Part shown: piece after piece, positions 15,533 through 39,136 of the stretch
How positions within the stretch are numbered: the stretch's first letter is position 1
Layout: each line of letters starts with the position of its first letter
NCBI RefSeq assembly: GCF_011058165.1
Contig: NZ_JAALEG010000057.1
Location: forward strand, 1 to 41,755
DNA: 41,755 bases
Source of the DNA: Rhodococcus aetherivorans
GTDB lineage: Bacteria; Actinomycetota; Actinomycetes; Mycobacteriales; Mycobacteriaceae
Direction of reading: 5' to 3'
Position numbers and translations under genes: made by a program
The notes under the pieces: generated by a model
What the model was told of the DNA's origin: nothing
The model's database searches: none
Seen by the model: the letters and a program-made list of their open reading frames with translations, nothing else

Positions 15533-17092
15533 TCAGTAGATGAGGACGGCGAACAGCGTGCTGAGCACGAGCCCCGCCATCACCGGCAGGAAGCACTTGC
15601 GGGCCAGGTCGAGGACGGGGACGCGGGCGAATCCGGCCACGGCGACGAGCGACGACCACGCGACGATCACCCCGCCGCCGGACCAGATGTTGCCCATCTG
15701 CCCGATCGCGGCGAGGGTCGACGGATCCATGCCGACCGCCGGGCCCAGCGCGCCGGACAGCGAACCGGTCAGCGGCAGACCGCTGAAGCCGGACCCGTCC
15801 AGCCCGGCCACCACGCCGATGAGCAGGATGCCGAACGACGTGACGAACGGGTTCTGCGGCAGGTGCGACTGTGCCGCGTTGACGAGATCGAACAGGATTC
15901 CCGGACCCGTCTCGCCGTCCGCGTAGCCGAGGATGGCACCGGAGAAGTCGGGGTTGCCGATGAGGAAGAAGCCGGCGATCGGCAGCACGACGCCCATCGC
16001 CTTGAAGGCGAACACCAGACCGTCGACGAGGTGCTCGGAGGTGGTCTCGAGGAAGCCGCCCCTGTCGTTGGACGCGGCGGCCGCGAACAGGATGAGCGCC
16101 GCGATTCCACCGACGATGGCCGCGGCGTCCCCACCCTGCAGGGGCGGCACCACCTGGGTGAACTTGCCCAGCAGCAGATACACGATGAAGGCGAGGTAGG
16201 CGAGCGGAACGAGCATCGCGAACGCCTTCGCGGTGCCCCTGCTCTCGGCGAGTTCGTAGCTGCCGGGGTCGCGCTCGGCGACGATCACGGCCGTCGCCGT
16301 GCTCGCGGCACCGTCGGGGCCACCGGCGGGGCCGCCGCCCACGGGCTCGGGCTGCACCGGCTGCCGGCTCGGGGCGGATCCGCCGCCGGCCGGGCCGTCG
16401 GCGCCGCGGTCGGCCTCGGCCTCCCACTCGACGAGCAGGTCCGGCGACGGCGCCCGCCACGTCCGGCGCTGCGCGACGAACGTGATCGCCAGCGCGGTCA
16501 CGCCGACGACGAGCGACAGCACGAGCGACTTGTCCGCCACGGCGTCGACGTCGGCACCGGCCGCCGTGGCGGAGATGCCCGGTGCGACCTTGATGATGTA
16601 GTCCGACGACAGGGCCATGCCCTGGCCACAGATGGCGATGACCATGCCGACCGACAGCGGCGACAGGCCGGCCCGGATGGCGACGGGGATCAGCACGGCA
16701 CCGACGAGCGGGACGGCCGGGGTGGGCCAGAAGAACAGGGAGATCACGTACGTCACGACGGCCAGCACGACGAAGCTGCTGGTGCCGGTACGCATGACCC
16801 TGCGGAACGGCGCGACCATCAGCCGGTCGGCGCCGAGTTGCCGCAGCGCGCCGAGCATCGCGGTCACCAGCGCGATGATCAGGAAGATGTTGAACAGCTC
16901 CTTCGCGGCCACGAGGCTGGCGTTGAAGATCGAGGACAGTCCGGTGACGATGCTGCCGGAGAACACGAAGGCGGTCAGGAACGTTCCGATGACTGCGGGA
17001 ACCACGATGTTCTTCCGCAGGGCCATGGTGGCCAGGATGACGACGATGCCGGCCACGTAGACCCAGTGGGCGGCTGTGAGTTGTACGTCCAA
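15533..17092 (-). CDS. Ion-transporter-superfamily permease (GntP/dicarboxylate-carrier-like)
   Basis: The 519-residue protein has about 12 hydrophobic segments in two halves. A hydrophilic, Pro/Gly-rich linker (about residues 215-270) joins them, as in permeases that take up organic anions. The repeated signature is visible: FFWPTPAVPLVGAVLIPVAI in the first half and GQMGNIWSGGGVIVAWSSLV in the second. I assign it to the ion-transporter superfamily but cannot name the substrate. The start is the TTG at 17092, with AGGA seven bases upstream; the frame beyond it is not conserved-looking. It shares a 350-base divergent regulatory region with an MFS gene. A DNA element there also occurs beside the pucR-type gene, suggesting shared control. 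Confidence 0.7.
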   Translation of the reverse strand: MDVQLTAAHWVYVAGIVVILATMALRKNIVVPAVIGTFLTAFVFSGSIVTGLSSIFNASLVAAKELFNIFLIIALVTAMLGALRQLGADRLMVAPFRRVMRTGTSSFVVLAVVTYVISLFFWPTPAVPLVGAVLIPVAIRAGLSPLSVGMVIAICGQGMALSSDYIIKVAPGISATAAGADVDAVADKSLVLSLVVGVTALAITFVAQRRTWRAPSPDLLVEWEAEADRGADGPAGGGSAPSRQPVQPEPVGGGPAGGPDGAASTATAVIVAERDPGSYELAESRGTAKAFAMLVPLAYLAFIVYLLLGKFTQVVPPLQGGDAAAIVGGIAALILFAAAASNDRGGFLETTSEHLVDGLVFAFKAMGVVLPIAGFFLIGNPDFSGAILGYADGETGPGILFDLVNAAQSHLPQNPFVTSFGILLIGVVAGLDGSGFSGLPLTGSLSGALGPAVGMDPSTLAAIGQMGNIWSGGGVIVAWSSLVAVAGFARVPVLDLARKCFLPVMAGLVLSTLFAVLIY

Positions 17093-17444: not shown

Positions 17445-18821
17445 ATGACCACCCGTACTGCCGCGCCGACTCCGGCCCCGGCGCACGCCGATTCCGGAAC
17501 CCCGCTCGCGCTGTCCGCCCTGCTGGCGGGAACCCTGGTCGGCACGATCAGCAACAACGTCGTGAATGTCCCGTTGGCGGAGATCCTGTCGGATTTCGGC
17601 ACCTCGCTCGAGAGCGGGGTGCTCGTCGTCGCCGGTTTCCTGTTGACGTTCGCGGCGTCGATGCCGCTGGCCGGCTGGATCGGTGATCGCTTCGGCCGCC
17701 GGCGCGTGTACTGCGGCGCGCTCCTGGCGACGGCGGTGTGCTCGGCCGGCGCCGCGACGGCCCCCAACCTGGCGGTGCTCGTCGCGTGGCGCTCGCTGGG
17801 CGGTGTCGCCGCCGCCGCGTTCGCGCCCGCCGTGATGGGCCTGATCGCGTGGTTGTTCGGGCCCGAGCGGCGGGCGCGGGCCGTCGGGGCCTGGGCGGCG
17901 GTCAACGGTGCCGGTCAGGCCCTCGGACCGTCGATGGGCGGCCTGATCGCCGACCACTGGGGGTGGCGCTGGGTGTTCGTCCCGCTCGTGCCGGTGGCGC
18001 TGATCGGCTTCGCGGGGACCCTGCGCTGGATTCCCGCGTTCGAGGGCCGGCGCATGCGCCTCGACGGCCCGGGCGCGGCCGCGTTGACGCTCGGCGCGGC
18101 GGTGCTGGTGCTCGGGCTGACGCTGGTCCCGCAGCCCGGCGTGGCGCTGCCCGCCGCCCTCGCGCTGATCGGGGGCGCGGCCGTCGTGCTCGTGTGGTTC
18201 GTGCTGCACTGCCTGCGCACGCAGGTGCCGTTCGTCGACGTCCGCCTCGTGGCCGAACCGCGGTTCGCCCGCAGCGCGATCGCGGCGTTCGGTCAGATGT
18301 TCTGCCTCGGTGCGACCCTGCTCGCGGTGCCGCTGTACCTGACCGGCGCGGGGGTGTCCACAGCCCTGGCGGGGACGATCCTGTTCGCGCTGCCCGCCGT
18401 GATGGTCGCCCTGGCCCCGATCGTGGGCCGCACGACCGACAGGCTGGGCGCCCGGAGGGTGCTGCGGGCGGGGCTGGCGGTGCTGATCGTCGCCCAGTCG
18501 GCCCTGGCCGCCGTCCTGGCGACCGCGGCGACGAACCACTGGGCGGTCGTCGCGGTGCTCGCGGTCACCGGGGTGGGCAGCGCGCTCGTACAGACCCCGG
18601 CCGCGGCCGGGTCGACGCGCTCGCCCGCCGGAGCCCAGGGCACCGGGCTGGGGTTGTTCAACCTGATCCGTTTCGGCGGATCGGCGGTCGGCGCCGCGTG
18701 GGTGGCCATCGCGGTGGACTCGTGGTCGTACCCCGTGCTGTTCGTCGTGTGCGCCGTCGTCGTCGCGGCGGGGCTGGCCGCGTCCTTCCTCGGCCGCGAC
18801 CCCGAACTGGCAGGCGTGTGA
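17445..18821 (+). CDS. MFS transporter (DHA2-like), second copy
   Basis: The 458-residue protein has about 14 hydrophobic segments, with the MFS loop signature GWIGDRFGRRRVYCG near residue 72 and a GRTTDRLGARRV counterpart near residue 325. The segment VNGAGQALGPSMGG is the motif-C region typical of exporters of this group. The ATG start has CAGGAG at good spacing. It is divergent from the ion-type permease and convergent with the PucR gene, whose stop is only 7 bases from its own. It could export an inhibitor, or take up or release an intermediate of the neighbouring catabolic block. It is not closely similar to the MFS protein at the left edge. Confidence 0.87.
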   Translation: MTTRTAAPTPAPAHADSGTPLALSALLAGTLVGTISNNVVNVPLAEILSDFGTSLESGVLVVAGFLLTFAASMPLAGWIGDRFGRRRVYCGALLATAVCSAGAATAPNLAVLVAWRSLGGVAAAAFAPAVMGLIAWLFGPERRARAVGAWAAVNGAGQALGPSMGGLIADHWGWRWVFVPLVPVALIGFAGTLRWIPAFEGRRMRLDGPGAAALTLGAAVLVLGLTLVPQPGVALPAALALIGGAAVVLVWFVLHCLRTQVPFVDVRLVAEPRFARSAIAAFGQMFCLGATLLAVPLYLTGAGVSTALAGTILFALPAVMVALAPIVGRTTDRLGARRVLRAGLAVLIVAQSALAAVLATAATNHWAVVAVLAVTGVGSALVQTPAAAGSTRSPAGAQGTGLGLFNLIRFGGSAVGAAWVAIAVDSWSYPVLFVVCAVVVAAGLAASFLGRDPELAGV

Positions 18822-18828: not shown

Positions 18829-20502
18829 TCAGCGGTAGTTGATCTCGCGGTCCACGGCGGTGTGGACCTGGTCCAGCAGCTCGAGGCGGATCGCGAGCCA
18901 CGCCGTGAACTGGTTCTCCGGCAGGCGCACGTCCATCGACAGCGCACGGGAGATGCGATCGAGCTTGGACAGCATCGTGTTTCGGTGCACGTTGAGCTCC
19001 CGCGCCGCGGCGTTGACGTTGCCACCCGCGCTCAGGTACGCGACGAGCGTGTCGTGCAGGTCGGTTCCGGCGCGGATCGGGCCGAGCACGTCGCGGACCA
19101 GGCGGCGGCTGCGGTCGGTCTCGGCGACGAGTTCGAGCACGCCGTAGCCGCGCAGGTCGCGGTAGGAGACGGCGCCGGACAAGCCCAGCCGCTGCCCGAT
19201 TCCCAGGGCGACCCGGGCCTGACGGTAGCTCTCCCGGATCTCGTCCGCGCCGACGGCGGGCGCGCCGTGCGCGACCGGCACCGGCCGGCCGCGCCGGTCC
19301 TCCAGGTCCAGGGCCATGGCCTCGGCATACTTCTCGATCTCCGCCTCGACGTCGCGCCGGTCGCGCGACCGGAGCGAACGGACGACGACGAGGACGTCCC
19401 CGATCACGGTGACGTAGGACCGCACCGCCGGGTGCGGCAGCACGCTCGCCGCGTACCGCGCGAGCCGCAGCAGGCTCCCCGAGCCCTCGACGCCCGCACC
19501 CCCGGCGTCCGGGGCGTGCCCGGCCGCGACGAACACCGCGAACGTCGAGGTCAGATCGATGTCGTGATACCCGGCCCGCGCCTGCATGTCGTGCTGGCTG
19601 GTGAAGCTGCCGTGCACGAGCGCCTGCACGAAGTCCCCGCGGGCGCGTTCCTCCGCTTCGTCGACACTGCGCTGCCGCAACATCTCCGAGCCGATGATCG
19701 CCGTCGCCTGTTCGGTGACGACCGCGTGCTGAGCCAGTTCGTGCGGGCCCGGGCCGGGACCGGCGGCAAGCACCGCGACCCAGCCCTCGAACCGCTTGCC
19801 CAGGCGGATGGGGCTGGCGGTGCACGTCCAGCGTCCCGAATCGCCGGACAGCTCCACCACCCGGGTGTCGTGGCCGTGTCCGGATCCACTCGTGGTCTCC
19901 GCGCCCTGCCGTTCGGCCAGCGCCCGCGGAAGCCGGTCGGAGACGAGGTCCGTGGTCGCGGAGTCCAGGCCGTGGACCGCGACGACGTGCCCGCGCGCGT
20001 CGAGCGCGACGGCGGGATGGTGCGCGAGGGCCGAGACCTCGCGGAGGAGCAGGGTCATGCCCGCGCCCCGGTGCAGCAGCCCCGCCAGGGTGGTGTGGAC
20101 GTGCGACGAGTAGCGCATCACGTGCACCTCCTGCGTCAGGGCACGCTCGGCCAGGAGGCGGTTGAGCGCCGCGAAGCCGATCGGGAAGCTCAGCTCGAGG
20201 ACGACGAGTCCCGCAGGCAGCGGCGACTCCGCGGTCGTCGCGGGCAGCGAGCCGTCCACGACGAGGGCGGCGGCGCCGCGCGCGGCCAACGCCGCGACGG
20301 CGTGTACGTTGCCGGCGAGCGCCTCCGGACGGGCGTACACGGCGACGGCATCGAGGTCGTCGAATCGGCCCATGACCTCGCTGAACGGCAGTGCCCAGGT
20401 GAGGGCGCGGTCGAGGGCGGTGTGCCCGGACGCGATCCGCGCCCCGGTCATCAGCGACTCGTCGAGCAGACCCCGGACGGTCAGGCGCGGGCTCGGTTCC
20501 AT
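18829..20502 (-). CDS. PucR family transcriptional regulator (PucR/CdaR type)
   Basis: The 557-residue regulator has an N-terminal PucR-type sensory domain (about 8-130: LTVRGLLDESLMTGARIASG through GFAALNRLLAERALTQ), a central GAF/GGDEF-like region (about 290-420), and a C-terminal helix-turn-helix. The HTH reads LHDTLVAYLSAGGNVNAAAR then ELNVHRNTMLSKLDRI, the hallmark of this family. Such proteins usually activate uptake and catabolism of purines, amino acids, amines or sugar acids when bound to the substrate. The ATG at 20502 has AGCAGG upstream. It is divergent from the GlcG-like gene that opens the eight-gene run. It is the likely controller of that run and, through a shared element, of the permease/MFS pair. 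Confidence 0.9.
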   Translation of the reverse strand: MEPSPRLTVRGLLDESLMTGARIASGHTALDRALTWALPFSEVMGRFDDLDAVAVYARPEALAGNVHAVAALAARGAAALVVDGSLPATTAESPLPAGLVVLELSFPIGFAALNRLLAERALTQEVHVMRYSSHVHTTLAGLLHRGAGMTLLLREVSALAHHPAVALDARGHVVAVHGLDSATTDLVSDRLPRALAERQGAETTSGSGHGHDTRVVELSGDSGRWTCTASPIRLGKRFEGWVAVLAAGPGPGPHELAQHAVVTEQATAIIGSEMLRQRSVDEAEERARGDFVQALVHGSFTSQHDMQARAGYHDIDLTSTFAVFVAAGHAPDAGGAGVEGSGSLLRLARYAASVLPHPAVRSYVTVIGDVLVVVRSLRSRDRRDVEAEIEKYAEAMALDLEDRRGRPVPVAHGAPAVGADEIRESYRQARVALGIGQRLGLSGAVSYRDLRGYGVLELVAETDRSRRLVRDVLGPIRAGTDLHDTLVAYLSAGGNVNAAARELNVHRNTMLSKLDRISRALSMDVRLPENQFTAWLAIRLELLDQVHTAVDREINYR

Positions 20503-20592
20503 GTCGACCTGCTTTCTGCGAGCGGGGCGCCGGCGCGAGGGACGACGTGCACCTTTTTCATCAAGTACCAGAGTCGAAGGTCCGCAGGCGAT

Positions 20593-20615
20593 GTGCAACT
20601 TGTACACGAATTGTG
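20593..20615. promoter_or_regulatory. Candidate PucR-protein binding element
   Basis: This 23-base element of form GTG-CAACTTG-TACACGAATTGTG lies midway in the 254-base region between the divergent pucR-type and glcG-like genes. It aligns, with short gaps, to 17253-17276 in the permease/MFS promoter region: both begin GTG, contain CAA(T/C)TTG, and end CGAA(C)TTGTG. Function is inferred from recurrence and position. Confidence 0.4.
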
Positions 20616-20756
20616 TCGGGTACGGGTGATTCTGACCGTCCCTCCGTGGCCGCATCCCTGTTAGAAATAGCCCACTGGCGAAAACGCATCCACCGGCCGG
20701 ACCCTCGCTTCCCGCTCCGCCAGGCCGGTACTCCCGCAGACCGAAAGTGGAGACCC

Positions 20757-21206
20757 ATGCATCGAATTCATCGCATCACCCTCGACGACGCGCTCCCCCT
20801 CCTCGCTGCCGGCCGCGCGAAGGCGGAGGAGATCGGCGTCAAGCAGACCCTGTGCGTCTGCGACGAGAGCGCCAACGTCATCGCCCTGCACCGCCTCCCC
20901 GGTGCACGGCTGACGGGTGTCGAGATCGCGATGGCCAAGGCGTTCACCGCGGCGGGCCACGAACGCGCCACGCACCTGTTCAACGAACCGCCCAACGGGC
21001 CGGCCCTGCCCGGCAACGAGGCCTTCGGCATCAGCCACATGCTGCCGGGCAAGTTCGCGATCTTCGTCGGCGGCTTCCCGCTGGTGTTCGACGGCCAGAT
21101 CGTCGGCGCCGTCGGCATCAGCGGCGGAAACGGCGAGCAGGACAAGGCCGTCGGCGCGGCGATGCTCGCGGAGTTCGAGGCGATCACCGCGTCGGTGGCG
21201 CACTGA
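20757..21206 (+). CDS. GlcG/HbpS-like (DUF336) protein
   Basis: This 149-residue single-domain protein belongs to the GlcG/HbpS/PduO C-terminal family. Members include heme-binding HbpS and poorly understood proteins of glycolate and diol catabolism. The sequence shows AGRAKAEEIGVKQTLCVCDE, the core MAKAFTAAGHERATHLF, and the C-terminal GGFPLVFDGQIVGAVGISGG followed by EQDKAVGAAMLAEFE, all typical. The ATG at 20757 has GGAG closely upstream. It is the first gene of the rightward run and divergent from the PucR regulator. A gap of 185 bases separates it from the next gene. It could bind heme or a small ligand; its role is not established. Confidence 0.85.
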   Translation: MHRIHRITLDDALPLLAAGRAKAEEIGVKQTLCVCDESANVIALHRLPGARLTGVEIAMAKAFTAAGHERATHLFNEPPNGPALPGNEAFGISHMLPGKFAIFVGGFPLVFDGQIVGAVGISGGNGEQDKAVGAAMLAEFEAITASVAH

Positions 21207-21391: not shown

Positions 21392-22111
21392 ATGACCGAA
21401 CTGCTCGGACGCGACGAGTTCCGCGCCGCACTCGAGAACGCGATCAAGGGCCGCGAGGCCAAGGACGCCTCGTTCAGCAAGGCCTGGGCCGAGGGCAAGC
21501 TCGAGAAGCACCACTTCGCCCGGTGGGCCGAGAACCACTACCACTACGTGGGCCCGTTCGCGGACTACCTCGCGAACATCTACTCCAACACGCCCGACAC
21601 GTTCACCGACGCCAAGGACTTCACCCTGCAGAACATGTACGAGGAGGAGCTGGCCGACATCCGGCACACCGACCTGCTCATCAAGTTCGCCGAGGCGTGC
21701 GGCACCACCCGCGAGCGCGTCGAGGATCCGAACAACATGAACGCCGTCACCCGCGGCCTGCAGGCGTGGTGCTACGCGGTCTCGCAGCGCGAGCACTTCG
21801 TGGTCGCCACCGCGGCCCTGGTCGTCGGTCTCGAGTCGCAGGTGCCGAGCATCTACAAGAAGCAGATCGTGCCGCTGCGCGAGGTGTACGGGTTCACCGA
21901 GGACGAGATCGAGTTCTTCGACCTGCACATCACCTCGGATGTCGTCCACGGCGAACGCGGGTACCAGATCGTGCTGGACTGCGCCGACACCCCGCAGTTG
22001 CAGCAGCGCTGCCTGCAGCTCGTGCGCTGGGGCGCGGAGATGCGTTTCTCGTACACCAAGGGCCTGTACGACACGTACGTCGCTCCCGACCTCGAGCTGG
22101 CTCCGGCCTGA
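21392..22111 (+). CDS. Heme-oxygenase-like diiron oxidase (TenA/PqqC/CADD superfamily)
   Basis: The 239-residue all-helical protein belongs to the TenA/PqqC superfamily. The residues present fit the metal-binding branch (heme-oxygenase-like diiron oxidases) better than TenA or cofactor-less PqqC. They are E85-x6-H92 in NMYEEELADIRHTDLL, E148 in VVGLESQVPSIY, and H179-x3-D183-x2-H186 in DLHITSDVVHGERG. Both spacing patterns match the ligand set described for Chlamydia CADD. The N-terminal region has WAENHYHYVGPFADY. Such enzymes activate O2 for N-oxygenation, desaturation or C-C cleavage. The gene heads a tight cluster with a Rieske ferredoxin and its reductase, a plausible electron supply. 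The substrate and exact reaction are unknown. The 185-base upstream gap may hold a second promoter. Confidence 0.82.
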   Translation: MTELLGRDEFRAALENAIKGREAKDASFSKAWAEGKLEKHHFARWAENHYHYVGPFADYLANIYSNTPDTFTDAKDFTLQNMYEEELADIRHTDLLIKFAEACGTTRERVEDPNNMNAVTRGLQAWCYAVSQREHFVVATAALVVGLESQVPSIYKKQIVPLREVYGFTEDEIEFFDLHITSDVVHGERGYQIVLDCADTPQLQQRCLQLVRWGAEMRFSYTKGLYDTYVAPDLELAPA

Positions 22112-22194
22112 CCGACGTGACCGGACCGCGGGAGGGTCCACCGCTCGGCCCTCCCGCGCCGGTCCCGGCGGCCATCCCCGATCGAAGGAGAATC

Positions 22195-22578
22195 ATGTCC
22201 ACCGACGCCGCCTCGGCCCCGCCCGGGTCGACCCGCGACAGGGTCGCCGTCGCCACCGTCAAGGAGCTGACCCGCCGGCGCAAGCTGCGCGTCGAGGTCG
22301 ACGGCGTCGGCATCGCGTTGTTCCACGCGAACGACCGGGTGTACGCGTTCGCCGACCTGTGCATCCACCAGGACCGCTCGCTCGCCAAGGGCACCCTGTT
22401 GCACGGGCGGGTCATCTGCCCCGGCCACCAGTGGCGGTTCGACCTCGAAACCGGCTACGAGGAGGACCAGGATCTCTGCCAGCCGACCTATCCCGTGACC
22501 GTCGAGGGCGACACCGTCTATCTCGATCCGGCCCCGCGCCGAGTCGTTCCCGGCTCGCAAGAGGAGAGTTCGTCATGA
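22195..22578 (+). CDS. Rieske-type [2Fe-2S] ferredoxin, low-potential (oxygenase) type
   Basis: The 127-residue soluble protein carries one Rieske domain with C56-x-H58 (CIHQDRSLAKG) and C75-x2-H78 (VICPGHQWRFDLETG). It lacks the two extra cysteines that form a disulfide in bc1-type proteins, so it resembles the electron-donor ferredoxins of aromatic-ring dioxygenases. The N-terminal 15 residues are a short disordered-looking extension. The ATG at 22195 has AAGGAGAAT upstream. Its stop overlaps the start of the ferredoxin reductase gene (ATGA). With no ring-hydroxylating oxygenase in the block, the natural electron acceptor is the diiron oxidase encoded immediately upstream. Confidence 0.9.
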   Translation: MSTDAASAPPGSTRDRVAVATVKELTRRRKLRVEVDGVGIALFHANDRVYAFADLCIHQDRSLAKGTLLHGRVICPGHQWRFDLETGYEEDQDLCQPTYPVTVEGDTVYLDPAPRRVVPGSQEESSS

Positions 22579-23798
22579 CCGTACGCACCGTTGTCACCGT
22601 CGGCGCCGGCCAGGTCGCCGCGGTCGCCGCACGCACGTTGCGCCGCCGCGGATTCGACGGCCGCATCGTCCTGCTCGGCGACGAACCGCACGCGCCCTAC
22701 CAGCGGCCGCCACTGTCGAAGGAGTTCCTCGCCGGCCGGGAACCCGTCGCCTCCCTTTCCCTGCTCACACCGAAGTGGCTGGCCGACAACGATATCGACA
22801 TCCGGACCGGTGTCACGGTACGGCGCGTCGACACCGCTTCGCGCAGCCTGGAATTCGACGGTGGGTCCGTCGCCGCCGACGCGGTGATCCTCGCGACCGG
22901 GGGACGCCCGCGCACGATCCCCACCTCCGGGACGCGCCCCGATCTCGTGCACTACCTGCGGACGCTCGACGACGCCGTCGCCCTCGCCCCGCGGCTGACC
23001 CCCGGTGCGCGCCTGGTCGTCGTCGGCGGCGGATTCGTCGGCCTCGAGATCGCCGCAACGGCACGCGGTCTCGGTGTCGACGTGGTCGTCCTCGAATACG
23101 CCGACGCCCTGCTGGGTTCCGTCCTGGGCGCCACGGTCGGCGGGTTCTGCGCCGACCTGCACCGCCGCAACGGCGTCGATCTGCGCACCGGCGTCGGCGT
23201 GGACTCCGTCGCGACCTCCGAGGCCGGGGTGCGGGTCCGCACCACGACCGGCGACACGATCGAGGCCGACGTGGTCGTGGTCGGCATCGGCATCACGCCG
23301 AACGTCGACGTGGCCGCCGCGAGCGGACTCCACACCGACAACGGCATCGTCGTCGACGCCGTGGGCCGCACCGCCGTACCGGGAATCCACGCCGCCGGCG
23401 ACGTCGCGAACCGCTTCTCCGACCGCGCCGGCCGCCGAGTCCGGGTGGAGCACTTCGACAATGCCAACCGGCAGGCCGCGGTCGTCGCGGACACGATCGT
23501 CGGTCGCACCTCGCTCGCCGACGACGCCCACTGGTTCTGGTCGGACCAGTACGACACGAACATCCAGTTCACCGGAACATCCTCCGGGACGACGGAACTC
23601 GTCGTGCGCGGCGACGCCCGCTCGGGGGAGTTCACCGTCTTCTATCTCGCCGGCGACGTGCTCACCGCGGCGTTCGCCATGGACCGCGGCGAGGACATCA
23701 TGGCCGCCCGCGAACTCGTCGGCCGGACGGTCGGCGCGCACCAGCTCGCCGACGCGGACGTGGACCTGTGGGAACTGGGCGAACAGGTGGTGAGCTGA
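22575..23798 (+). CDS. FAD-dependent ferredoxin reductase (oxygenase-coupled)
   Basis: This 407-residue pyridine nucleotide-disulfide-type flavoprotein transfers electrons from NAD(P)H to a ferredoxin. The N-terminal FAD motif reads TVGAGQVAAVAARTLRRRG (8-26), followed by APYQRPPLSKEFL. The NAD(P)H motif VVVGGGFVGLEIAA is near 154, and the second FAD motif GIHAAGDVANRF near 274. A C-terminal reductase domain follows, with HFDNANRQAA. It is start/stop coupled to the Rieske ferredoxin gene, making a two-component electron chain. It ends one base before the aldehyde dehydrogenase start. Confidence 0.93.
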   Translation: MTVRTVVTVGAGQVAAVAARTLRRRGFDGRIVLLGDEPHAPYQRPPLSKEFLAGREPVASLSLLTPKWLADNDIDIRTGVTVRRVDTASRSLEFDGGSVAADAVILATGGRPRTIPTSGTRPDLVHYLRTLDDAVALAPRLTPGARLVVVGGGFVGLEIAATARGLGVDVVVLEYADALLGSVLGATVGGFCADLHRRNGVDLRTGVGVDSVATSEAGVRVRTTTGDTIEADVVVVGIGITPNVDVAAASGLHTDNGIVVDAVGRTAVPGIHAAGDVANRFSDRAGRRVRVEHFDNANRQAAVVADTIVGRTSLADDAHWFWSDQYDTNIQFTGTSSGTTELVVRGDARSGEFTVFYLAGDVLTAAFAMDRGEDIMAARELVGRTVGAHQLADADVDLWELGEQVVS

Positions 23799-23799
23799 G

Positions 23800-25254
23800 G
23801 TGGCCGTGACAGGACTGAACTTCATCGACGGTGCGTGGGTGCCGGCCGTCTCCGGCGCCACCTTCGAACGACGCAACCCCGCCGATTCCACCGACCTGAT
23901 CGGAACGTTCCCCGATTCCGACGCCACCGACGTGCGCATCGCCGTCGACGCACTCGACAAGGCGGCCCCCGAATGGGCCGCCACCCCACCGGAGCGCCGG
24001 GCCGCCGTCCTGGAGGCCGCCGCCCGGCACCTCGAGGAGCGACGGGAATCGCTCGTCGGGGAACTGGTCCGCGAGGAGGGCAAGACGCGCGCCGAGGCCA
24101 CCGTCGAGGTGAGCCGCACCCCCATGAACCTGCGCTTCTACGCGGGCGAGGCGCTGCGCGCGACCGGCGCGACGTACCCGGCCGCCGGCCGCACCATGAT
24201 CTACACCGTCCGCGAACCCATCGGCATCGTCGGGGCCATCACCCCCTGGAACTTTCCGCTGAACATCCCGTCCCGCAAGCTCGGGCCGGCGCTCGCCGCG
24301 GGAGATCCGGTGCTGTTCAAGCCGTCCGAGATCACCCCGCTCATGGGGCAGCGGCTGGTCGAGGCGCTGCTCGCCGGCGGACTGCCCCCGGCGGCGATCG
24401 CGCTGGTGCAGGGCGGCGGGCGGGCCGGGGCCGCGGTGGTCGCCGACGAACGCGTCGCGGCCGTCACCTTCACCGGATCGACGGAGGTGGGCCGGGCCAT
24501 CCATCGTGGCGTCGGCCCGGACCGGCGGGTACAGCTCGAGATGGGCGGCAAGAACCCCGTCGTCGTCCTCGCCGACGCCGACCTCGACGCCGCGGCCGCG
24601 TTGATCGTCAAGGGCGCTTTCGGGCTCTCCGGACAGGCCTGCACCGGCACCAGCCGGGTCGTCGCGATCGACGACATCCACGACGCCCTGCTCGAGCGGG
24701 TCGTCGCCCGCGCCGAGGCCCTCACCGTCGGACCGGGCCTGCGGGCGGGGGCGTCGATGGGTCCGCTCGCCAGCCGCGGCCAGCTGGACAAGTTCCTCGA
24801 GTACGTCGCCGTCGGGCAGGACGAAGGGGCCCGTCTGGTGTGCGGCGGAACCCGCTGCGACGACAACGGTTTCGGAGACGGGTTCTTCGTGCGCCCGACG
24901 GTGTTCGCCGACACCGCGCCGGGCATGCGCATCCTGACCGAGGAGATCTTCGGTCCGGTGCTGGCGTTCCAGCGGGCGTCGTCGTTCGACGAGGCCGTCA
25001 CGCTGGCCAACGACACGGCGTTCGGCCTGAGCGCGGCGATCGTCACGCGCGATCTCGACCGGGCCGGGCAGTTCGTCGCCCGTTCCCGCACCGGCCTGGT
25101 CAAGGTGAACCAGCCGACGAACGGCATGGCGATGAACGCTCCGTTCGGTGGGTACAAGGCGTCGAGCACCCAGACGTTCAAGGAACAGGCCGGGCCGACG
25201 CTGATGCAGTTCTACCAATCCGAGAAGACCGTCTACATCGACCCCGTCGCCTGA
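23800..25254 (+). CDS. NAD(P)-dependent aldehyde dehydrogenase
   Basis: The 484-residue aldehyde dehydrogenase oxidises an aldehyde to the acid. N151 lies in ITPWNFPLN, the general base E247 in QLEMGGKNPVVV, and the nucleophile C281 in GQACTGTSR. The active-site Cys context and overall form resemble the branch containing 2-oxoglutarate semialdehyde and succinate semialdehyde dehydrogenases, but the substrate is not fixed by this. The GTG at 23800 follows the reductase stop by one base. A GTG at 23806 is an equally possible start. It sits within the diiron oxidase run and is a natural next step after an oxidative cleavage that releases an aldehyde. It is distinct from the second aldehyde dehydrogenase in the amine block. 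Confidence 0.92.
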   Translation: MAVTGLNFIDGAWVPAVSGATFERRNPADSTDLIGTFPDSDATDVRIAVDALDKAAPEWAATPPERRAAVLEAAARHLEERRESLVGELVREEGKTRAEATVEVSRTPMNLRFYAGEALRATGATYPAAGRTMIYTVREPIGIVGAITPWNFPLNIPSRKLGPALAAGDPVLFKPSEITPLMGQRLVEALLAGGLPPAAIALVQGGGRAGAAVVADERVAAVTFTGSTEVGRAIHRGVGPDRRVQLEMGGKNPVVVLADADLDAAAALIVKGAFGLSGQACTGTSRVVAIDDIHDALLERVVARAEALTVGPGLRAGASMGPLASRGQLDKFLEYVAVGQDEGARLVCGGTRCDDNGFGDGFFVRPTVFADTAPGMRILTEEIFGPVLAFQRASSFDEAVTLANDTAFGLSAAIVTRDLDRAGQFVARSRTGLVKVNQPTNGMAMNAPFGGYKASSTQTFKEQAGPTLMQFYQSEKTVYIDPVA

Positions 25255-25296
25255 CCGCCCGCGGTCGGAGCAGATCCCAATGCCTGGAGGATGACC

Positions 25297-25653
25297 ATGG
25301 AGTTCAAGAGAGTGGCCCGTTCCGGGCAGGTGCCGGAGGGCATCGTCCGCCGCTTCTACGCCGGCGACTACGAGTTCGCGATCTCGCGGCTGGACGGGAA
25401 GGCCTACGCGACATCCAACTACTGCTCACACCTGGACTGCCTGCTCTCGTCCGGCAAGCTCGTGCAGGATGGAATCGGATGCTCTTGCCACGGAAGCGCT
25501 TTCGATCTCGCAACCGGTGAACCCATCTGCCCTCCCGCCACGGAGCCGATCAGGACCTATCCCGTCGAGGAGCGCGGCGGCGAGATCTTCGTCGGCATCG
25601 ATCCCGCCGAGCCGCCGGAGGGCCCGCGCCGGCGCCGGCTCCGGCAGGCATGA
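25297..25653 (+). CDS. Second Rieske [2Fe-2S] protein, high-potential-like with disulfide cysteines
   Basis: The 118-residue protein has one Rieske domain with ligands C43-x-H45 and C62-x2-H65. It also has C48 and C64, in the pattern CSHLDC...CSCHGSAF. That six-residue set matches the disulfide-stabilised cluster of bc1-type and other high-potential Rieske proteins, unlike the first Rieske protein of this run. There is no signal peptide or membrane anchor, so it should be cytoplasmic. The ATG at 25297 is preferred to the in-frame ATG at 25291 because TGGAGG directly precedes the latter and is correctly spaced only for the former. Its stop overlaps the next start (ATGA). Its partner is unknown. 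Confidence 0.88.
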   Translation: MEFKRVARSGQVPEGIVRRFYAGDYEFAISRLDGKAYATSNYCSHLDCLLSSGKLVQDGIGCSCHGSAFDLATGEPICPPATEPIRTYPVEERGGEIFVGIDPAEPPEGPRRRRLRQA

Positions 25654-27248
25654 CAGCGCGGCGGGTCCGTCCGGCGACATTGTCGACCGGCGGCATGGTG
25701 TCCTCGAGCCACCCGCTGGCCGGCCAGGCCGGGGCGCGGGTGCTCGCCGACGGCGGCAACGCGGTCGACGCCGCGCTGGCGATGGCCGCGACCACGTGGC
25801 TGACCCTGCCCGGCCAGTGTGGCCTCGGCGGGGACGCATTCGCCGTGGTGCGGGAACCGGACGGCACAGTCTGGACGGTCGGGGGGAGCGGTTACGGCCC
25901 CGACGGCGGCACACCGGACTTCTACCGGGACCGCGGGCTGGCCGCGATCCCGCTGGACGGCGCCCTCGCGGTGGCCGTGCCGGGCGCTCCGGCCGCGCTC
26001 GCGGCGCTGCACCGGCGCGGCGCCACCCGCAGCCTTGCCGAGCTGTGGGAACCGGCCGCGCGCCTCGCCGAGCACGGGTTGCCCTGCTCGGCCAAGACCC
26101 GCGACGACGTGCGGTCGGCGCTGGACGCCGTCCGCAGCGATCCCGGGCTGGCCTCCGTGTACGTCGACGGCGGTCTCGTACCGCTCGTCGGTGACCGGCT
26201 GCCGCAACCCGACCTGGCGCGCACCATCCGTGAACTCGCGCACGACCCGGCGTCGTTCTACACCGGGTCGCTCGCCGAGCGGTGCGTCGCCGCGCTGCGC
26301 GACGCGGGCGCCCCGTTCTCGGGAGACGAATGGGTCGCAACCGGGACGGTGACGCCGGAGCAGGCGCTGTCCGGCCGGTACGCCGGCGCGGTGATCCATC
26401 AGACCCCACTGCCGACCCCCGGGTGGATGGTGTTGCACCAGGCGGCGCTGTGCGACGGCGTCGTCGGGTCCTCCCCGCTCCTGAGCGCGGCGGCGATCGA
26501 CCGCATGGCCCGGGCCGCGCGGACGGCGTTCGAGGACCGGCTGCGCTGGTGCGGCGCCGACAACGACGGTGCCGCGCGCATCCTCGATCCCGGCCACATC
26601 CGCGCCGGCCGCGACCGGCTGTCGGCGACCGCGCCCGCCGGAGCGTTCACGGTGGCCGGCGGAGACACCACCTCGCTGGTGACGGTCGACCGGGACGGAC
26701 GCGCGGTGAGCTTCATCCATTCGCTGGCGTTCACCTTCGGGGCCAAGTTCACCGTGCCCGGCACGGGGATCGTCCTGAACAACCGGCTGGGGCGGGGCGC
26801 GTATCTGATCGACGGGCATCCGAACGAGGTGCGGCCCCGCCGCAAGCCGCTGCACACCCTCAATGCCTGGATCGTCACGGACGCGGCGGGAGCGCTGCTC
26901 CACGTCGGCAACACCCCCGGCGGGGACGGGCAGGTGCAATGGAACATGCAGCTGCTCTCGCACCTCCTCGACCACGGGCTCGATCCGCAGGAGGCGGTGT
27001 CGGCGCCCCGGTTCACGGTGTTCCCCGGCTCCGACGCGAACGTGCTCGGGAACCCCGCCGAGCTGCGCATCGAGGCCGACGTCCCGCCCGAGGTCCGCAC
27101 CGCCCTGTCCGAGATGGGGCACGACGTGCGCACCCTCGAACCGCTCGGCGCCGAGGGCAGCGCCCAGATCATCTCTCTCGATCCCCGCGGCGTGCTCAGC
27201 GGCGGCAGCGATCCCCGTCAGGAAGGAGTGGCTCTCGGTGTCGAATGA
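25650..27248 (+). CDS. Gamma-glutamyltranspeptidase-like Ntn hydrolase, cytoplasmic form
   Basis: The 532-residue protein belongs to the GGT family, proenzymes that self-cleave to expose an N-terminal threonine. The start VSSSHPLAGQAGARVLADGG and NAVDAALAMA are typical of the large subunit. The likely processing site and nucleophile is T340 in AGGDTTSLVTVD; the usual TTH has Ser in place of His. The small subunit holds LNNRLGRGAYLIDGHPNEVRP and NTPGGDGQVQWNMQLL, the place of the GSPGG oxyanion motif. There is no signal peptide, unlike periplasmic GGT, so it acts inside the cell, perhaps on a gamma-glutamyl or other amide intermediate. It overlaps both neighbours (4 and 11 bases), so it belongs to the same operon. 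Confidence 0.88.
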   Translation: MTARRVRPATLSTGGMVSSSHPLAGQAGARVLADGGNAVDAALAMAATTWLTLPGQCGLGGDAFAVVREPDGTVWTVGGSGYGPDGGTPDFYRDRGLAAIPLDGALAVAVPGAPAALAALHRRGATRSLAELWEPAARLAEHGLPCSAKTRDDVRSALDAVRSDPGLASVYVDGGLVPLVGDRLPQPDLARTIRELAHDPASFYTGSLAERCVAALRDAGAPFSGDEWVATGTVTPEQALSGRYAGAVIHQTPLPTPGWMVLHQAALCDGVVGSSPLLSAAAIDRMARAARTAFEDRLRWCGADNDGAARILDPGHIRAGRDRLSATAPAGAFTVAGGDTTSLVTVDRDGRAVSFIHSLAFTFGAKFTVPGTGIVLNNRLGRGAYLIDGHPNEVRPRRKPLHTLNAWIVTDAAGALLHVGNTPGGDGQVQWNMQLLSHLLDHGLDPQEAVSAPRFTVFPGSDANVLGNPAELRIEADVPPEVRTALSEMGHDVRTLEPLGAEGSAQIISLDPRGVLSGGSDPRQEGVALGVE

Positions 27249-27708
27249 ACAGGCGATCGGCCGGGCAGCGATCGGCGCGCAGCCGCCGCGGCCGCGCGGC
27301 CGCTACGTACCCGCGGTGCTGTCCGGCTCGACCGTCCACACGGCGGGGATGACCCCGCGCCGTGACGGCCGGCTGACCGTCACCGGCCGCGTCGGCGGCG
27401 AAGTGGACCCGGCCGTCGCCCGGGAGGCGGCGGGCCTCGCGGCCGGCAACGCCCTGGCCGCGGTCCGTTCGGTGCTGCCGCCGGGTGCGATGTTCCGGTG
27501 CGTCGAGATGGTGGTGTACATCGCGTGTGCCGACGGCTTCACCGAGCTCTCGGCGGTCGCCGACGGCGCATCGGAGGTCGTCGAACGCGCGCTGGGCCCG
27601 GCGTCACTGCCCGCCCGCAGCGCGATCGGGGTCTATCTGCTTCCCGGCAACGCGCCGGTCGAGGTGGCCGTCACCGCGCACGTCGCGGACGGACCCGGCG
27701 CGCACTGA
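27238..27708 (+). CDS. RidA/YjgF family protein (enamine/imine deaminase-like)
   Basis: The 156-residue protein of the Rid family has the family's C-terminal signature LPARSAIGVYLLPGNAPVEV. It retains the arginine (R127) that binds the carboxylate of 2-imino acids in deaminase-active members, and an acidic residue follows in VEV. The GTG start at 27238 lies 11 bases inside the GGT-like gene and has GGAAGGAG nine bases upstream. It is the last gene of the run. Rid proteins at the end of amine or amino-acid catabolic operons hydrolyse reactive enamine/imine intermediates to ketones plus ammonia, which implies a nitrogen-containing substrate for this pathway. It is longer than the 128-residue RidA form. 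Confidence 0.88.
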   Translation: MSNEQAIGRAAIGAQPPRPRGRYVPAVLSGSTVHTAGMTPRRDGRLTVTGRVGGEVDPAVAREAAGLAAGNALAAVRSVLPPGAMFRCVEMVVYIACADGFTELSAVADGASEVVERALGPASLPARSAIGVYLLPGNAPVEVAVTAHVADGPGAH

Positions 27709-31330: not shown

Positions 31331-33277
31331 TCAGTCCGTGCAGCAGTGCTTCGACGTGCCGGCCGGAACGTCGAGGGCCGGGTTCCGGTCGAAGAACCCG
31401 ACCGGCTTCAGCGTGAACCCGGCGTAGTCGACGGGCATCACGGGCCAGTCCTCCGGGCGCGGGAAGTGGGTGAGCCCGAAGGTGTGCCACAGCACCAGGT
31501 CCTCGCCCTCGATGTTCCGGTTGCCGGCGACGAATGTCGGCAGTCCCGCCTGTCCCGGATGCTGGTTGACGAAGTCACCGGCCGGATAACGCTGCGCCGG
31601 GTCGTACCGCGTGACCCACAGGTGCTTGGTGGCGAACGCGGCGCGGGCGGCGATGGAACTCGACGGATCCGCCAGCAGCACGGGCTGACCTTCCGGGTGC
31701 AGTGCGTATCCGACGTTCCGCCCGAGCCGGTTCTGCTTGGTCGGGTTGGTGATGTGCCAGACCCTCGCCTTGGTGTTGTCGGCCAGCCTCTGCCCGTCGG
31801 CCTCCGTGGTGAGGGTGGTCTTGCGGCAGCGGAACGCGTTACCCCACGGGTTGTCCGGTCCCATCGGTTCGGGCACGGCGTCGACCTCCTCGACCGTGTT
31901 GACGTTGCCGTCGACCGCCATGTCCAGGCGGGCGGAGAAGAGGTGCTGGTGGAACGGCGCACCGAGCCCGGGCGCCATCTCGGTGGCGAACCCGTCCTCG
32001 CCGCGGTAGGCGGAGGTGAAGACGATGCCGGTGGCCTTGGCTTCGAGTTCGATGGTGCCGTCCAGGTAGAGGTACCAGTAGAAGCCGTAGTCGTAGTTGC
32101 CGATGGTGAGGAAGAAGGAGATCACGAGCCGGCGCGACCGGCGGGTCTCGGTCATGCCGTTGAACATGTCCGTGTGCTTCCAGAGGACGCCGTAGTCCTC
32201 CTCGTGGAGGCAGATCGCGTTCTTCATCACCCGCGGGTCGCCCTTCTCGTCGGCGATGGTGACGTCGAAGTACCGGATCTCGCCGAGGCAGTCGCACCCG
32301 AGTTCCAGCGAGTTGGTGTAGCGGCCGAACAGGTATTCGCCCTGGTCGAAGTAGTTCTGCCAGTACCGCACCGGCGACGGGTCGGCGTAGGGCACGACCA
32401 TCTCGGCGATGGATGCGCGGTAGATCACCGGCCGCTGCACGCCGTCGTCGGAGAACGACAACTGGTGCAGGGTCAGGCCCTCGCGTACGTCGAACCCGAA
32501 CCGGAACGTCCAGTCCGCCCAGGTGATCCGATTGCCCTCGACCGAGAAGCTGGGCCCCTCGGGTTGGGTGATCTCGATCGGCTTGAGGTCGGTGCGGGCC
32601 GGCCTCGCATGCGGAGCGGCGTCCCATTCGCCGCGTTCGGCCGGCACGGGAAGGGTGATCTCGTCGACGACCTTCACCACGCGCTGCTCGGTGAGGTCGA
32701 CGTAGGCGACCACCCCGTCGATCGGATGTGCCCAGGGCAGGTCGGCCTCGTCCTCCTGGTGGAACGCGAGCACGCGGACGATCCGGTGCCCCACCTCGTC
32801 CTCGTGCCCGAACACACCGGCCGACAGCGGAACCGCGCGCACCTTCTCCGGATCGATGCCGCGCGCAGCCATCGCCGCAATCCAGTCGAAGCTGGACAGG
32901 AGGAACGATTCGATGTCCTCGAACTCCTCGTCGAGGATCGGGACATGCCCTTCGGTGGCGGCGTCGACGGCGACGGTGCTGAGGATACTGCGTTCGGTGA
33001 CGGACACGACGTGATCGGAGCCCGCCCCGGTCGCACGGTCGAGGAGAAGGACGCGGGCACGGCGCTCGATGTGCTCCCCCGGCCTGAACGCCAGGACCGT
33101 CGACTTGTGCGGTTCCTCGAGCCCGACGTAGACGAACCGGACGTGCTCGGTTACCAGCCCCGCCGCCGATACCGTTTCCTTGACGGCGGTGATCTCGTCG
33201 GCGGTCAGAGGGGTGAGGGGGTGGTCCGGTGCGGGCGTCGATGCCGCTTCGGTGAACTTCGTGGTGGCAGTGCTCAT
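31331..33277 (-). CDS. Copper-containing primary amine oxidase
   Basis: This quinoprotein oxidises primary amines to aldehydes, releasing ammonia and hydrogen peroxide. The 648 residues match the bacterial family (about 640). The topaquinone precursor is Y395 in TIGNYDYGFYWY and the catalytic base is D311 in NYFDQGEYLFG. Copper ligands are H443 and H445 in FHQHLFSARLDM, with the third histidine in LWHTFGLTHFPR near 598-604. There is no signal peptide, so it is cytoplasmic, as in Arthrobacter. The ATG start has AAGGAGATC upstream and overlaps the stop of the APC permease gene (ATGA). With the adjacent aldehyde dehydrogenase it forms an amine-to-acid route; tyramine, phenethylamine or histamine are typical substrates. 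Confidence 0.96.
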   Translation of the reverse strand: MSTATTKFTEAASTPAPDHPLTPLTADEITAVKETVSAAGLVTEHVRFVYVGLEEPHKSTVLAFRPGEHIERRARVLLLDRATGAGSDHVVSVTERSILSTVAVDAATEGHVPILDEEFEDIESFLLSSFDWIAAMAARGIDPEKVRAVPLSAGVFGHEDEVGHRIVRVLAFHQEDEADLPWAHPIDGVVAYVDLTEQRVVKVVDEITLPVPAERGEWDAAPHARPARTDLKPIEITQPEGPSFSVEGNRITWADWTFRFGFDVREGLTLHQLSFSDDGVQRPVIYRASIAEMVVPYADPSPVRYWQNYFDQGEYLFGRYTNSLELGCDCLGEIRYFDVTIADEKGDPRVMKNAICLHEEDYGVLWKHTDMFNGMTETRRSRRLVISFFLTIGNYDYGFYWYLYLDGTIELEAKATGIVFTSAYRGEDGFATEMAPGLGAPFHQHLFSARLDMAVDGNVNTVEEVDAVPEPMGPDNPWGNAFRCRKTTLTTEADGQRLADNTKARVWHITNPTKQNRLGRNVGYALHPEGQPVLLADPSSSIAARAAFATKHLWVTRYDPAQRYPAGDFVNQHPGQAGLPTFVAGNRNIEGEDLVLWHTFGLTHFPRPEDWPVMPVDYAGFTLKPVGFFDRNPALDVPAGTSKHCCTD

Positions 33278-34755
33278 CGGGCGATCTCCTTGTCGATCTC
33301 GGTTTCGGTCGTGGCGGCGGGCGCGACGCCGCCGGAATGGTGGTGATGTCGTGCAGCGTCGGGGCGGAGAACGGCCACGGCCGTTCCGCCCGCGAACGCC
33401 CCGGCGAGAAGCACGCCGACGACGGCGGCGAGGGTGCCGGATCCGCCCACGAGCAGCGGCAGGTTCGCGATCGTCATCGCGAGCAGAGCGCTCAGCCCCG
33501 CGAGACCCAGCACCGGTGCGATCAGCGTGGGCCACGGCCGGGTGTCGGCCCGGGATCGCCGGAAGAAGACGAGGACGGCGATCGACGTCAGCGCCATCAG
33601 GGCGAGCACGCCGACGGACGCGACACCGGCGAACCAGGCGAAGACCTCGGTGACGGGATCGAGTCCGCCGACGGCCGAGGCCACGACGAGAACCAGGGCC
33701 GAGACCGTCTGCACGACCGAGGCCACGTAGGGCGAGGCATGGCGTACGTGCGAGCGGCCGCATCGCGCCGGCAGTGCCGCGCTGTTGCCGAGCGAGAAGA
33801 TGTAGCGCGCGAGCACGTTGTGGAAGGACAGCAGTGCCGCGAAGAGACTGGTGACGAGGAGCACCTGCACGACATCCCCCGCCGCCGCTCCCACGTAGCG
33901 GGTCGCGGTCTCGATGATCATGCCCTCCGGGTTCTCGGTGGCCAGGACGACGGCGCCCTCGTCGCCCCACGCGCTGACCAGCGCCCAGCTCGACAGCGCA
34001 TAGAAGCCACCGATGACCACCAGGGCGAGATAGGTGGCCCGCGGAATGGTCCGGGCCGGATCGCGCACCTCGTCGCGGAAGACCGCGGTCGCCTCGAAGC
34101 CGATGTAGCCGGCGACAGCGAAGATCAGGGCGATTCCCGGTGCGCCCGAGAAGAACTCGGAGGGGCGTAGCGCGGCGGTGGAAAGACCCTCCGCTCCGCC
34201 GCGGGCGATCACCGCTGCATCGATCACCAGTACGATGCCGACCTCGCAGAGCAGCAGGACCCCGAGGACCTTTCCGGACAGGTCGATGTGGCGGTAGCCG
34301 AGAATCGCGACCGCCGCCAGAACGATCAGAGCCCAGAGATACCAGGGCAACTCGGGACCGCCGTGCGAGGTCACGAAGTCGCCGAGGGCCGCGCCGAGGT
34401 ATCCGTAGACGGCACCCTGCACCGCGGTGTAGGACAGCAGCGCCAGGAACGCGGAACCCAGTCCGACGTGCCGGCCGAGTCCGTGGGTGACGAAGGTGTA
34501 GAACGCCCCCGCCCCGGGCACGTGCTTCGCCATCGCGGTGAAGCCGACGGCGAAGAAGAGCAGGACCACCGTGCAGACGATGTACGAAGCGGGGTACGCG
34601 GCCCCGTTTCCGGCGGAGATACCGAGTGGGACCGTGCCGGCGATCACGGTCAGCGGGGCCGCGGCCGCGACCACCATGAAGACGACGGCGCCGGGGCCGA
34701 GGCTGCCGGACAACCGGTGGGTGGGGGGTTCGTGTGCGCGAGCGTTGAGGGTCAT
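33274..34755 (-). CDS. APC family amino acid/amine permease
   Basis: The 493-residue transporter has 12 hydrophobic segments and the APC-superfamily first-helix motif (SLGPGAVVFMVVAAAAPLTV). It also has GYIGFEATAVFRDEVRDP in the middle and a cytoplasmic SRADTRPWP loop. The C-terminus carries a short histidine run (ARHHHHSGG). The ATG at 34755 starts the conserved region (NARAHEPPTHRLSGSLG); the longer frame upstream lacks membrane segments. It is start/stop coupled to the copper amine oxidase gene, which makes it the probable uptake system for that enzyme's amine substrate. Confidence 0.9.
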   Translation of the reverse strand: MTLNARAHEPPTHRLSGSLGPGAVVFMVVAAAAPLTVIAGTVPLGISAGNGAAYPASYIVCTVVLLFFAVGFTAMAKHVPGAGAFYTFVTHGLGRHVGLGSAFLALLSYTAVQGAVYGYLGAALGDFVTSHGGPELPWYLWALIVLAAVAILGYRHIDLSGKVLGVLLLCEVGIVLVIDAAVIARGGAEGLSTAALRPSEFFSGAPGIALIFAVAGYIGFEATAVFRDEVRDPARTIPRATYLALVVIGGFYALSSWALVSAWGDEGAVVLATENPEGMIIETATRYVGAAAGDVVQVLLVTSLFAALLSFHNVLARYIFSLGNSAALPARCGRSHVRHASPYVASVVQTVSALVLVVASAVGGLDPVTEVFAWFAGVASVGVLALMALTSIAVLVFFRRSRADTRPWPTLIAPVLGLAGLSALLAMTIANLPLLVGGSGTLAAVVGVLLAGAFAGGTAVAVLRPDAARHHHHSGGVAPAATTETEIDKEIAR

Positions 34756-34874
34756 CGGTGCTTCGACTTTCGGGAGAGGGAGTGCGCCGGCGATGTCGGT
34801 GCCGACCGCCGGAAGAAGCGTGCGCCCGGACGTTGTCGGTGCGGTCACCGCGGCGTCACGGTTCGTCGACGGCA

Positions 34875-34905: not shown

Positions 34906-34964
34906 CGGCCCGGCAGGGGTACGGACGGCGGTGCCCACACAGTGCCGGGCACCGCCCCGACCGG

Positions 34965-39090: not shown

Positions 39091-39136
39091 ACGGGACGTC
39101 CATATCGGGATCCCGCCGCCGGCCCGGAGCGGGCTG

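Follow-up and report, generated by a model that had tools for sequence, protein, structure and literature searches.

A heme-oxygenase-like dimetal oxidase with a probable electron chain of its own in a putative catabolic locus of Rhodococcus aetherivorans

The heme-oxygenase-like dimetal oxidases (HDOs), of which about a dozen are validated according to the available portion of a 2026 review, are described there chiefly as enzymes that help to make natural products and cofactors, and the string 'catabol' occurs once in that portion, with reference to heme (PMC13108848). A dedicated redox partner for such an enzyme is no longer without precedent because MboA-MboB, an HDO with its own partner in mangotoxin biosynthesis, was reported in 2026 (PMC13185094, accessible portion). 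The subject of the present analysis is an HDO gene in a 41,755-nucleotide stretch of Rhodococcus aetherivorans DNA (NZ_JAALEG010000057.1, listed as contig C169 in a genome of 6.4 Mb; hereafter, the window), where it heads a run of genes for two Rieske proteins, a ferredoxin reductase and several enzymes of catabolic type. Both the fold and the ligand set are known; what appears to be new is their multicomponent and probably catabolic setting.

Judging from the sequences, the locus would encode a complete oxidative catabolic pathway in which the first committed step is carried out by a multicomponent HDO and the substrate is a nitrogen-containing acid, a reading that is favored here with some reserve. 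One part of it is considerably firmer, namely, that the HDO likely has a dedicated electron supply and works in a catabolic context. A limited search of the open-licence literature, which is weak as evidence of absence, yielded neither a catabolic HDO locus nor a Rieske-fed HDO; the HDO papers among the results deal, judging by their titles, with biosynthesis, mechanism or other matters not connected with this locus, and PMC9007349 contained none of six HDO-, Rieske- and RidA-type terms. For the kpi pathway of 4-hydroxypyridine degradation, the proposed sequence of events consists of oxygenolytic ring opening to an N-formyl enamine, deacylation and conversion to an oxo compound (PMC7356986, portion available).

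The locus and its conservation

All seven genes that the original prediction placed in a coupled run, from the HDO to RidA, are present, and the six junctions between them measure, in order, 83, -4, 1, 42, -4 and -11 nt; the description of overlaps or tiny gaps holds for four of these junctions but not for the 83 and 42 nt ones. The run is not the full unit. The conserved locus consists of eleven genes including the HDO, and three of these, encoding an HbpS/GlcG-like protein, a permease and an MFS transporter, had been missed. The HbpS/GlcG-like gene lies upstream of the HDO and is read in the same direction, the PucR gene is divergent, and the MFS and permease genes lie beyond PucR. The genes of the locus, in window coordinates, are:

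About 15533-17092, minus strand: unnamed permease of 519 amino acids, ion-transporter (IT) type fold, conserved locus member
17445-18821, plus strand: MFS transporter, DHA2-like (PF07690, 195 bits; TIGR00711, 168.6 bits, under its cut-off)
18829-20655, minus strand: PucR-type regulator (PF13556 and PF17853)
20757-21206, plus strand: HbpS/GlcG-like (DUF336) protein, a relative of EfgA (PF03928, 109 bits)
21392-22111, plus strand: HDO (PF14518, 123.5 bits), ligands E85, H92, E148, H179, D183 and H186
22195-22578, plus strand: Rieske 1, ferredoxin-type [2Fe-2S] protein (PF00355, 50 bits)
22575-23798, plus strand: NAD(P)H-Rieske ferredoxin reductase of the FAD type (PF07992 and PF14759; HcaD model NF042949, 346.7 bits, cut-off 450)
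23800-25254, plus strand, GTG start: aldehyde dehydrogenase (ALDH; NF052305, 517.8 bits, cut-off 750; NF042993, 461.3 bits, cut-off 770)
25297-25653, plus strand: Rieske 2, four-cysteine type, CxHxxC...CxCH (PF00355, 65 bits)
25650-27248, plus strand: N-terminal-nucleophile (Ntn) amidase resembling gamma-glutamyltransferase (GGT; PF01019, 309.6 bits)
27238-27708, plus strand, GTG start: RidA/Rid-family imine hydrolase (PF01042, 44.9 bits)

Relatives were scanned with one genome per species, and among the 503 confirmed ones, the best 80 by HDO score, all actinobacteria by title, were analyzed. Gene sets were counted in the 61 fully flanked loci (longer than 20.6 kb, with 19 shorter loci left out) and contiguity in the 69 loci whose downstream sequence exceeds 5.5 kb. 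In a tblastn search with the window genes, nearly all of the 80 HDO genes proved to have this set as neighbors, with gene order and strand varying between genera. Rieske 1, the reductase, Rieske 2 and RidA are present in 61 of the 61 loci, ALDH and PucR in 60, the HbpS-like and GGT-like proteins in 59, the MFS transporter in 58 and the permease in 55; all ten neighbors occur together in 49 of the 61, in agreement with the predicted association of catabolic-looking genes with the HDO.

The predicted conservation of the HDO together with the Rieske/reductase pair is borne out as well: the three genes follow each other contiguously on one strand, with the reductase directly after Rieske 1, in 68 of the 69 loci, that is, far more often than expected by chance. 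The single exception (L031) has no Rieske 1 match at the threshold used. Downstream of the reductase, the 68 contiguous loci carry either ALDH and then Rieske 2 (52 loci) or Rieske 2 directly (16 loci). The mean identity in the kept loci is highest for the HDO (89.5%, the loci having been picked by HDO score), followed by the HbpS-like protein (85.1%), with Rieske 2 at 76.0%; the most variable window genes are those for the reductase (56.7%) and PucR (51.7%).

Co-occurrence across genomes follows the same pattern. In 298 genomes of the order, the HDO has 22 matches at an E-value of 1e-3, which split into 9 orthologs (at least 83% identity) and 13 remote proteins (at most 29%). The permease has 9 matches, 8 of them strong, and all 8 strong ones fall within the 9 HDO genomes; one HDO genome (G107) has no permease match. 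Rieske domains are matched in all 298 genomes, and proteins at least 58% identical to Rieske 2 are found in 10 only, the 9 HDO genomes and G271, a genome without an HDO match where the Rieske 2 relative (G271:C1:1440088-1440423) is 62% identical and may mark a decayed or alternative locus. The HDO was matched in 15 of 101 relatives, remotely in one of these (G079), and a GGT ortholog (E-value 1e-60) was found in 13 of 61 re-searched relatives, which are exactly those with an HDO ortholog. The Fisher p-values for co-occurrence are 6e-15 (permease), 2e-16 (Rieske 2) and 2e-13 (GGT), all inflated by the relatedness of the genomes.

No additional conserved genes emerged when the open reading frames (ORFs) outside the known genes were clustered: none of the 45 largest clusters exceeds 18 of 83 loci, and most consist of mycobacterial neighbors or apparently spurious frames. 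A few of them extend over several genera, such as a cluster from 15 loci of Gordonia, Rhodococcus and Mycolicibacterium. Positions 31331-41358 of the window hold a separate cluster of amine type, with a copper amine oxidase, an amino acid permease, an aldehyde dehydrogenase, IclR and LuxR regulators and an amidase. The idea that this cluster belongs to the pathway was discarded because it was not seen beside the HDO locus in three relatives, where 19-kb stretches yielded RidA but, for eight other downstream query proteins, no match that passed the filter.

The start of PucR is probably an internal ATG near position 20502. Upstream of the HbpS-like gene, 6 of 6 Rhodococcus sequences share the block CTGTTAGAAAT (20658-20668) without any difference, possibly as a promoter element or a PucR site; the alignments upstream of the HbpS-like gene and the HDO revealed no defined operator, only this one short conserved block.

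The oxidase and its electron supply

The six predicted metal ligands of the HDO are exact. They align with E81, H88, E142, H174, D178 and H181 of CADD, and five of them are present in 144 of 144 aligned homologs, with H179 in 143. The protein carries the three histidines and three carboxylates (3H/3C) on the core helices of the heme-oxygenase-like fold. The AlphaFold model of the 239-residue protein (mean pLDDT 94.5), which the original prediction proposed as a check, is consistent in fold and ligand pattern with a dimetal site, and superposition on CADD suggests that the six ligands converge on one site.

Several features set this protein apart from CADD and PqqC. In place of Y27 and K152 of CADD, it has S29 and Q158, which are kept in 143 and 144 of the 144 homologs, respectively; it scores 95.5 bits against the CADD model TIGR04305 (cut-off 200) and 45.6 bits against the PqqC model TIGR02111 (cut-off 240). 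Its own genome contains two pabB matches above the cut-off, no pqqE match above the cut-off, and a separate, stronger TenA (125 bits against 37). An Azospirillum PqqC, 25.7% identical, is located in a pqq operon. TenA thiaminase II is marked by a catalytic cysteine; for this residue comparison, the alignment of the HDO with TenA is of poor quality. The window's own genome also encodes a second, stronger Haem_oxygenas_2 protein (197 bits; G000:C151:46952-47473, minus strand). Public databases name homologs of the HDO TenA family transcriptional regulator, pyrroloquinoline-quinone (PQQ) synthase and even aldehyde dehydrogenase, names that look wrong. Genomes of Achromobacter, Billgrantia and Hydrogenophaga are among the proteobacterial sources of further homologs.

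By sequence motif, the two Rieske proteins of the locus differ in type. Rieske proteins of the bc1, b6f and sulredoxin-like kind are marked by two extra cysteines, in the pattern CxHxxC...CxCH, and among the filter-passing matches, this four-cysteine motif is found in 74 of 74 for Rieske 2 and in 0 of 76 for Rieske 1, where all 76 have CxH..CxxH without extra cysteines. The relatives of Rieske 1 in the PDB are T4moC and the ferredoxins of biphenyl and naphthalene dioxygenases. For Rieske 2, the best-scoring PDB chains are toluene dioxygenase ferredoxins, with the b6f and bc1 Rieske proteins weaker.

A different version of the electron chain is seen in betaproteobacteria, sampled here as five plasmid loci from two genera, Cupriavidus and Caballeronia, the two Caballeronia loci having identical listed protein accessions. 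The HDOs of these loci are 67-70% identical to the window protein, and ALDH, the HbpS-like protein and the permease are kept beside the HDO in 5 of 5. The other proteins encoded in the plasmid loci include plant-type [2Fe-2S] ferredoxins, a member of the OCD family and a reductase of the FNR type, which in Caballeronia is BenC-like, with 2Fe-2S, FAD and NAD domains. The window Rieske proteins, FAD reductase, GGT-like protein, RidA and PucR have no match in any of the five loci, so that the core common to both groups is reduced to the HDO, ALDH, the HbpS-like protein, the permease and some dedicated chain. Because the betaproteobacterial version replaces the Rieske/reductase pair, what is constant is a dedicated electron supply rather than Rieske proteins as such; the predicted chain for the HDO stands, with its conserved gene order, as the probable actinobacterial form of this supply. 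The OCD-family protein, together with an alpha/beta hydrolase in Caballeronia, may replace the GGT and RidA steps. A small conserved protein is encoded between the two plant-type ferredoxin genes (L019:9081-9428 and L018:6400-6720, both minus strand); the L019 copy, the only one scanned, has no Pfam match.

Catabolic-type enzymes and the possible pathway

The nearest models for the ALDH are 2,5-dioxovalerate and alpha-ketoglutaric semialdehyde (alpha-KGSA) dehydrogenases, both with scores under the cut-off, and the catalytic GQxCT is present in 69 of 69 filter-passing matches. The predicted GGT-like hydrolase is confirmed as a family member with a threonine nucleophile (GDTT) and the oxyanion PGG kept, but its residues speak against a gamma-glutamyl enzyme: at the positions that bind the carboxylate and amine of gamma-glutamate, which we take to be R114, D433, S462 and S463 of the Escherichia coli enzyme, the alignment reads Ser/Gly, His, His and Thr. 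With the gamma-glutamyl pocket lost, this is, as far as the alignment tells, not a canonical gamma-glutamyltransferase; the TIGR00066 score is 248.6 (cut-off 357.85), the nearest PDB entries are 2i3o and 2nlz, the latter a cephalosporin acylase entry, and the motif PLHTL is found in 59 of 68 filter-passing matches. RidA is nearest to 3d01 and PA0814 (9bk9) in the PDB, and its catalytic Arg and Glu, presumably equivalent to R105 and E120 of the Salmonella protein, are in place in 68 of 69 loci, the sole miss (L091) being out of frame there.

The permease has a fold of the ion-transporter superfamily, which makes an anion a likelier cargo than a free amine or a purine. More than 3,000 of the scored candidates are homologs belonging to this family, for which neither Pfam nor NCBIfam has a model. 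A second permease copy, 44-47% identical, lies downstream of RidA in L026, the single Rhodococcus locus with such a copy, and in certain mycobacterial loci (L036, L041, L046 and others), and a 48% identical paralog is encoded elsewhere in the window's own genome (G000:C166:35654-37162).

Combined, these assignments suggest a pathway, the specific order of which is doubtful. A nitrogen-containing organic anion would enter through the permease, and PucR would switch on the locus. The FAD reductase and Rieske 1 would relay electrons from NAD(P)H to an Fe/Fe or Fe/Mn site of the HDO, with Rieske 2 perhaps taking or tuning a second, higher-potential electron. With O2, the HDO would cleave a C-N or ring C=C bond, yielding an aldehyde and an amide or imine; the aldehyde, dicarboxylate-semialdehyde-like if the nearest models are a guide, would be oxidized by the ALDH and, being reactive, might be handled or sensed by the HbpS/GlcG-like protein; DUF336 proteins occur in gene clusters of aldehyde-producing catabolism (PMC8153426). 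The GGT-like Ntn enzyme would hydrolyze the amide or lactam, and the enamine or imine formed in this way would be hydrolyzed by RidA, with an oxo-acid and ammonia as the products.

Several points weigh against this scheme. The order of the steps is derived from family chemistry, and the absence of GGT and RidA from the betaproteobacterial loci implies that these steps are not universal. Neither a carboxylate substrate nor import is proven because the relatives of the permease fold also include, by what we take to be their functions, carriers of phosphate, sulfate and arsenite as well as export-type proteins, and the efflux-like MFS gene is compatible with export of a product. Finally, apart from the inflation of the co-occurrence statistics by relatedness, the 80 loci were chosen by score.

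Among the alternatives, the one that survives best, although unlikely, takes one of the small N-heterocyclic carboxylates, for example pyrrole-2-carboxylate, as the substrate, whose ring would be hydroxylated or opened by the HDO to give a 2,5-dioxopentanoate-like semialdehyde and ammonia, with lactam or imine intermediates processed by the GGT-like protein and RidA, and the ALDH yielding 2-oxoglutarate. A route from pyrrole-2-carboxylate to alpha-KGSA exists in Rhodococcus, but its oxygenase is flavin-dependent, and a full-text search of the open-licence literature for this route returned no paper. The nearest ALDH models, for the Caballeronia protein as well as that of the window, and the anion-carrier-type fold of the permease fit this possibility, and so does the Cupriavidus OCD-family protein, with its nearest relative a pyrroline/piperideine-2-carboxylate reductase (145 bits, cut-off 322); however, the ALDH and OCD scores all fall under the curated cut-offs. 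The succession of oxygenolytic opening, N-acyl hydrolysis and enamine loss is that of N-heterocycle pathways, as proposed for 4-hydroxypyridine (PMC7356986, portion available).

Slightly less probable is a BesC-like fragmentation of an amine or amino acid by the HDO, or its N-dealkylation, with release of formaldehyde or another small aldehyde and with the HbpS/GlcG-like protein as formaldehyde sensor or buffer and with ALDH and RidA processing the aldehyde and imine. The PDB relatives of the HbpS/GlcG-like protein are 2a2l, EfgA (6bws), PduO-C (5cx7) and NahX (9jth), and the formaldehyde-pocket residues of EfgA align with it. According to the accessible part of the EfgA study, the pocket residues are largely conserved across DUF336 homologs, so that their presence is not specific to formaldehyde, and no conserved context of efgA is evident among methylotrophs (PMC8153426). 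Furthermore, the ALDH models indicate longer semialdehydes, and the fold match of the HDO to BesC is no better than those to CADD, PqqC or TenA.

A biosynthetic locus, in which the HDO would tailor an amino-acid-derived natural product exported by the MFS pump, is improbable: the conserved efflux-like MFS gene and the role of characterized HDOs in making natural products or cofactors, as seen by the review (PMC13108848, available portion), are in its favor, but the ten conserved neighbors include no gene of the condensation, carrier or peptide-ligase type, none of the 45 largest ORF clusters exceeds 18 of 83 loci, and the locus has catabolic-type enzymes, a PucR regulator and an anion-carrier-type permease. 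That the HDO is a p-aminobenzoate (pABA) synthase like CADD, a PqqC or a TenA lodged in an unrelated operon is very hard to reconcile with the replaced CADD residues, the sub-threshold model scores and the pabB, pqqE and TenA content of the genome.

Comparison with known systems

If the proposed catabolic pathway is real, it would mean that the HDO fold serves primary catabolism, in a widespread enzyme whose natural reductant is encoded next to it; it would also provide a physiological electron chain for in vitro work on HDOs and a route to deorphanize many enzymes currently named TenA regulator or PQQ synthase. The pairing of two Rieske types and the change from Rieske to FNR from one phylum to another allow the redox-partner requirements of HDOs to be tested directly. 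Whether the locus is the founding case of a catabolic multicomponent HDO, a parallel in this fold to the Rieske oxygenases and toluene monooxygenases, with a reductase and two Rieske redox types, opening or cleavage of a nitrogenous carboxylate and an unnamed anion-carrier family of its own, present in many actinobacterial genera and, chain-swapped, in Burkholderiales, appears about evenly balanced.

Each of the closest described systems shares a part of this arrangement. The self-sacrificing pABA synthases CADD and NE1434 belong to the same HDO superfamily, whereas in the window HDO the sacrificial Tyr27 and Lys152 are missing, and the protein is set in a catabolic-type locus together with an electron chain dedicated to it. 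MboA-MboB likewise combines an HDO with a dedicated redox partner, and the betaproteobacterial loci use the same broad type of reductase (flavin and 2Fe-2S), but MboA-MboB is a biosynthetic peptide desaturase, and the actinobacterial loci combine a separate reductase of the FAD type with two Rieske proteins (PMC13185094, accessible portion). Supply through an HcaD/AndAa-like reductase and a Rieske ferredoxin is the feature in common with the three-component Rieske oxygenases and four-component toluene monooxygenases; in those systems, however, the oxygenase is a Rieske alpha subunit or a ferritin-like diiron hydroxylase, and in the present locus it is an HDO. The kpi pathway of 4-hydroxypyridine resembles the proposed one in the succession of oxygenase, N-acyl hydrolase and enamine-to-oxo conversion but opens the ring with an amidohydrolase-family dioxygenase instead of an HDO (PMC7356986, portion available). 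Among the auxiliary proteins, the GGT-like enzyme shares the family match and the Thr nucleophile with gamma-glutamyltransferases but, with its gamma-glutamate-binding residues replaced, is nearer to 2i3o and 2nlz. The HbpS/GlcG-like protein is homologous to EfgA and other DUF336 proteins and has their association with aldehyde pathways; unlike efgA, with no evident conserved context, its gene accompanies the HDO in nearly all of the fully flanked loci.

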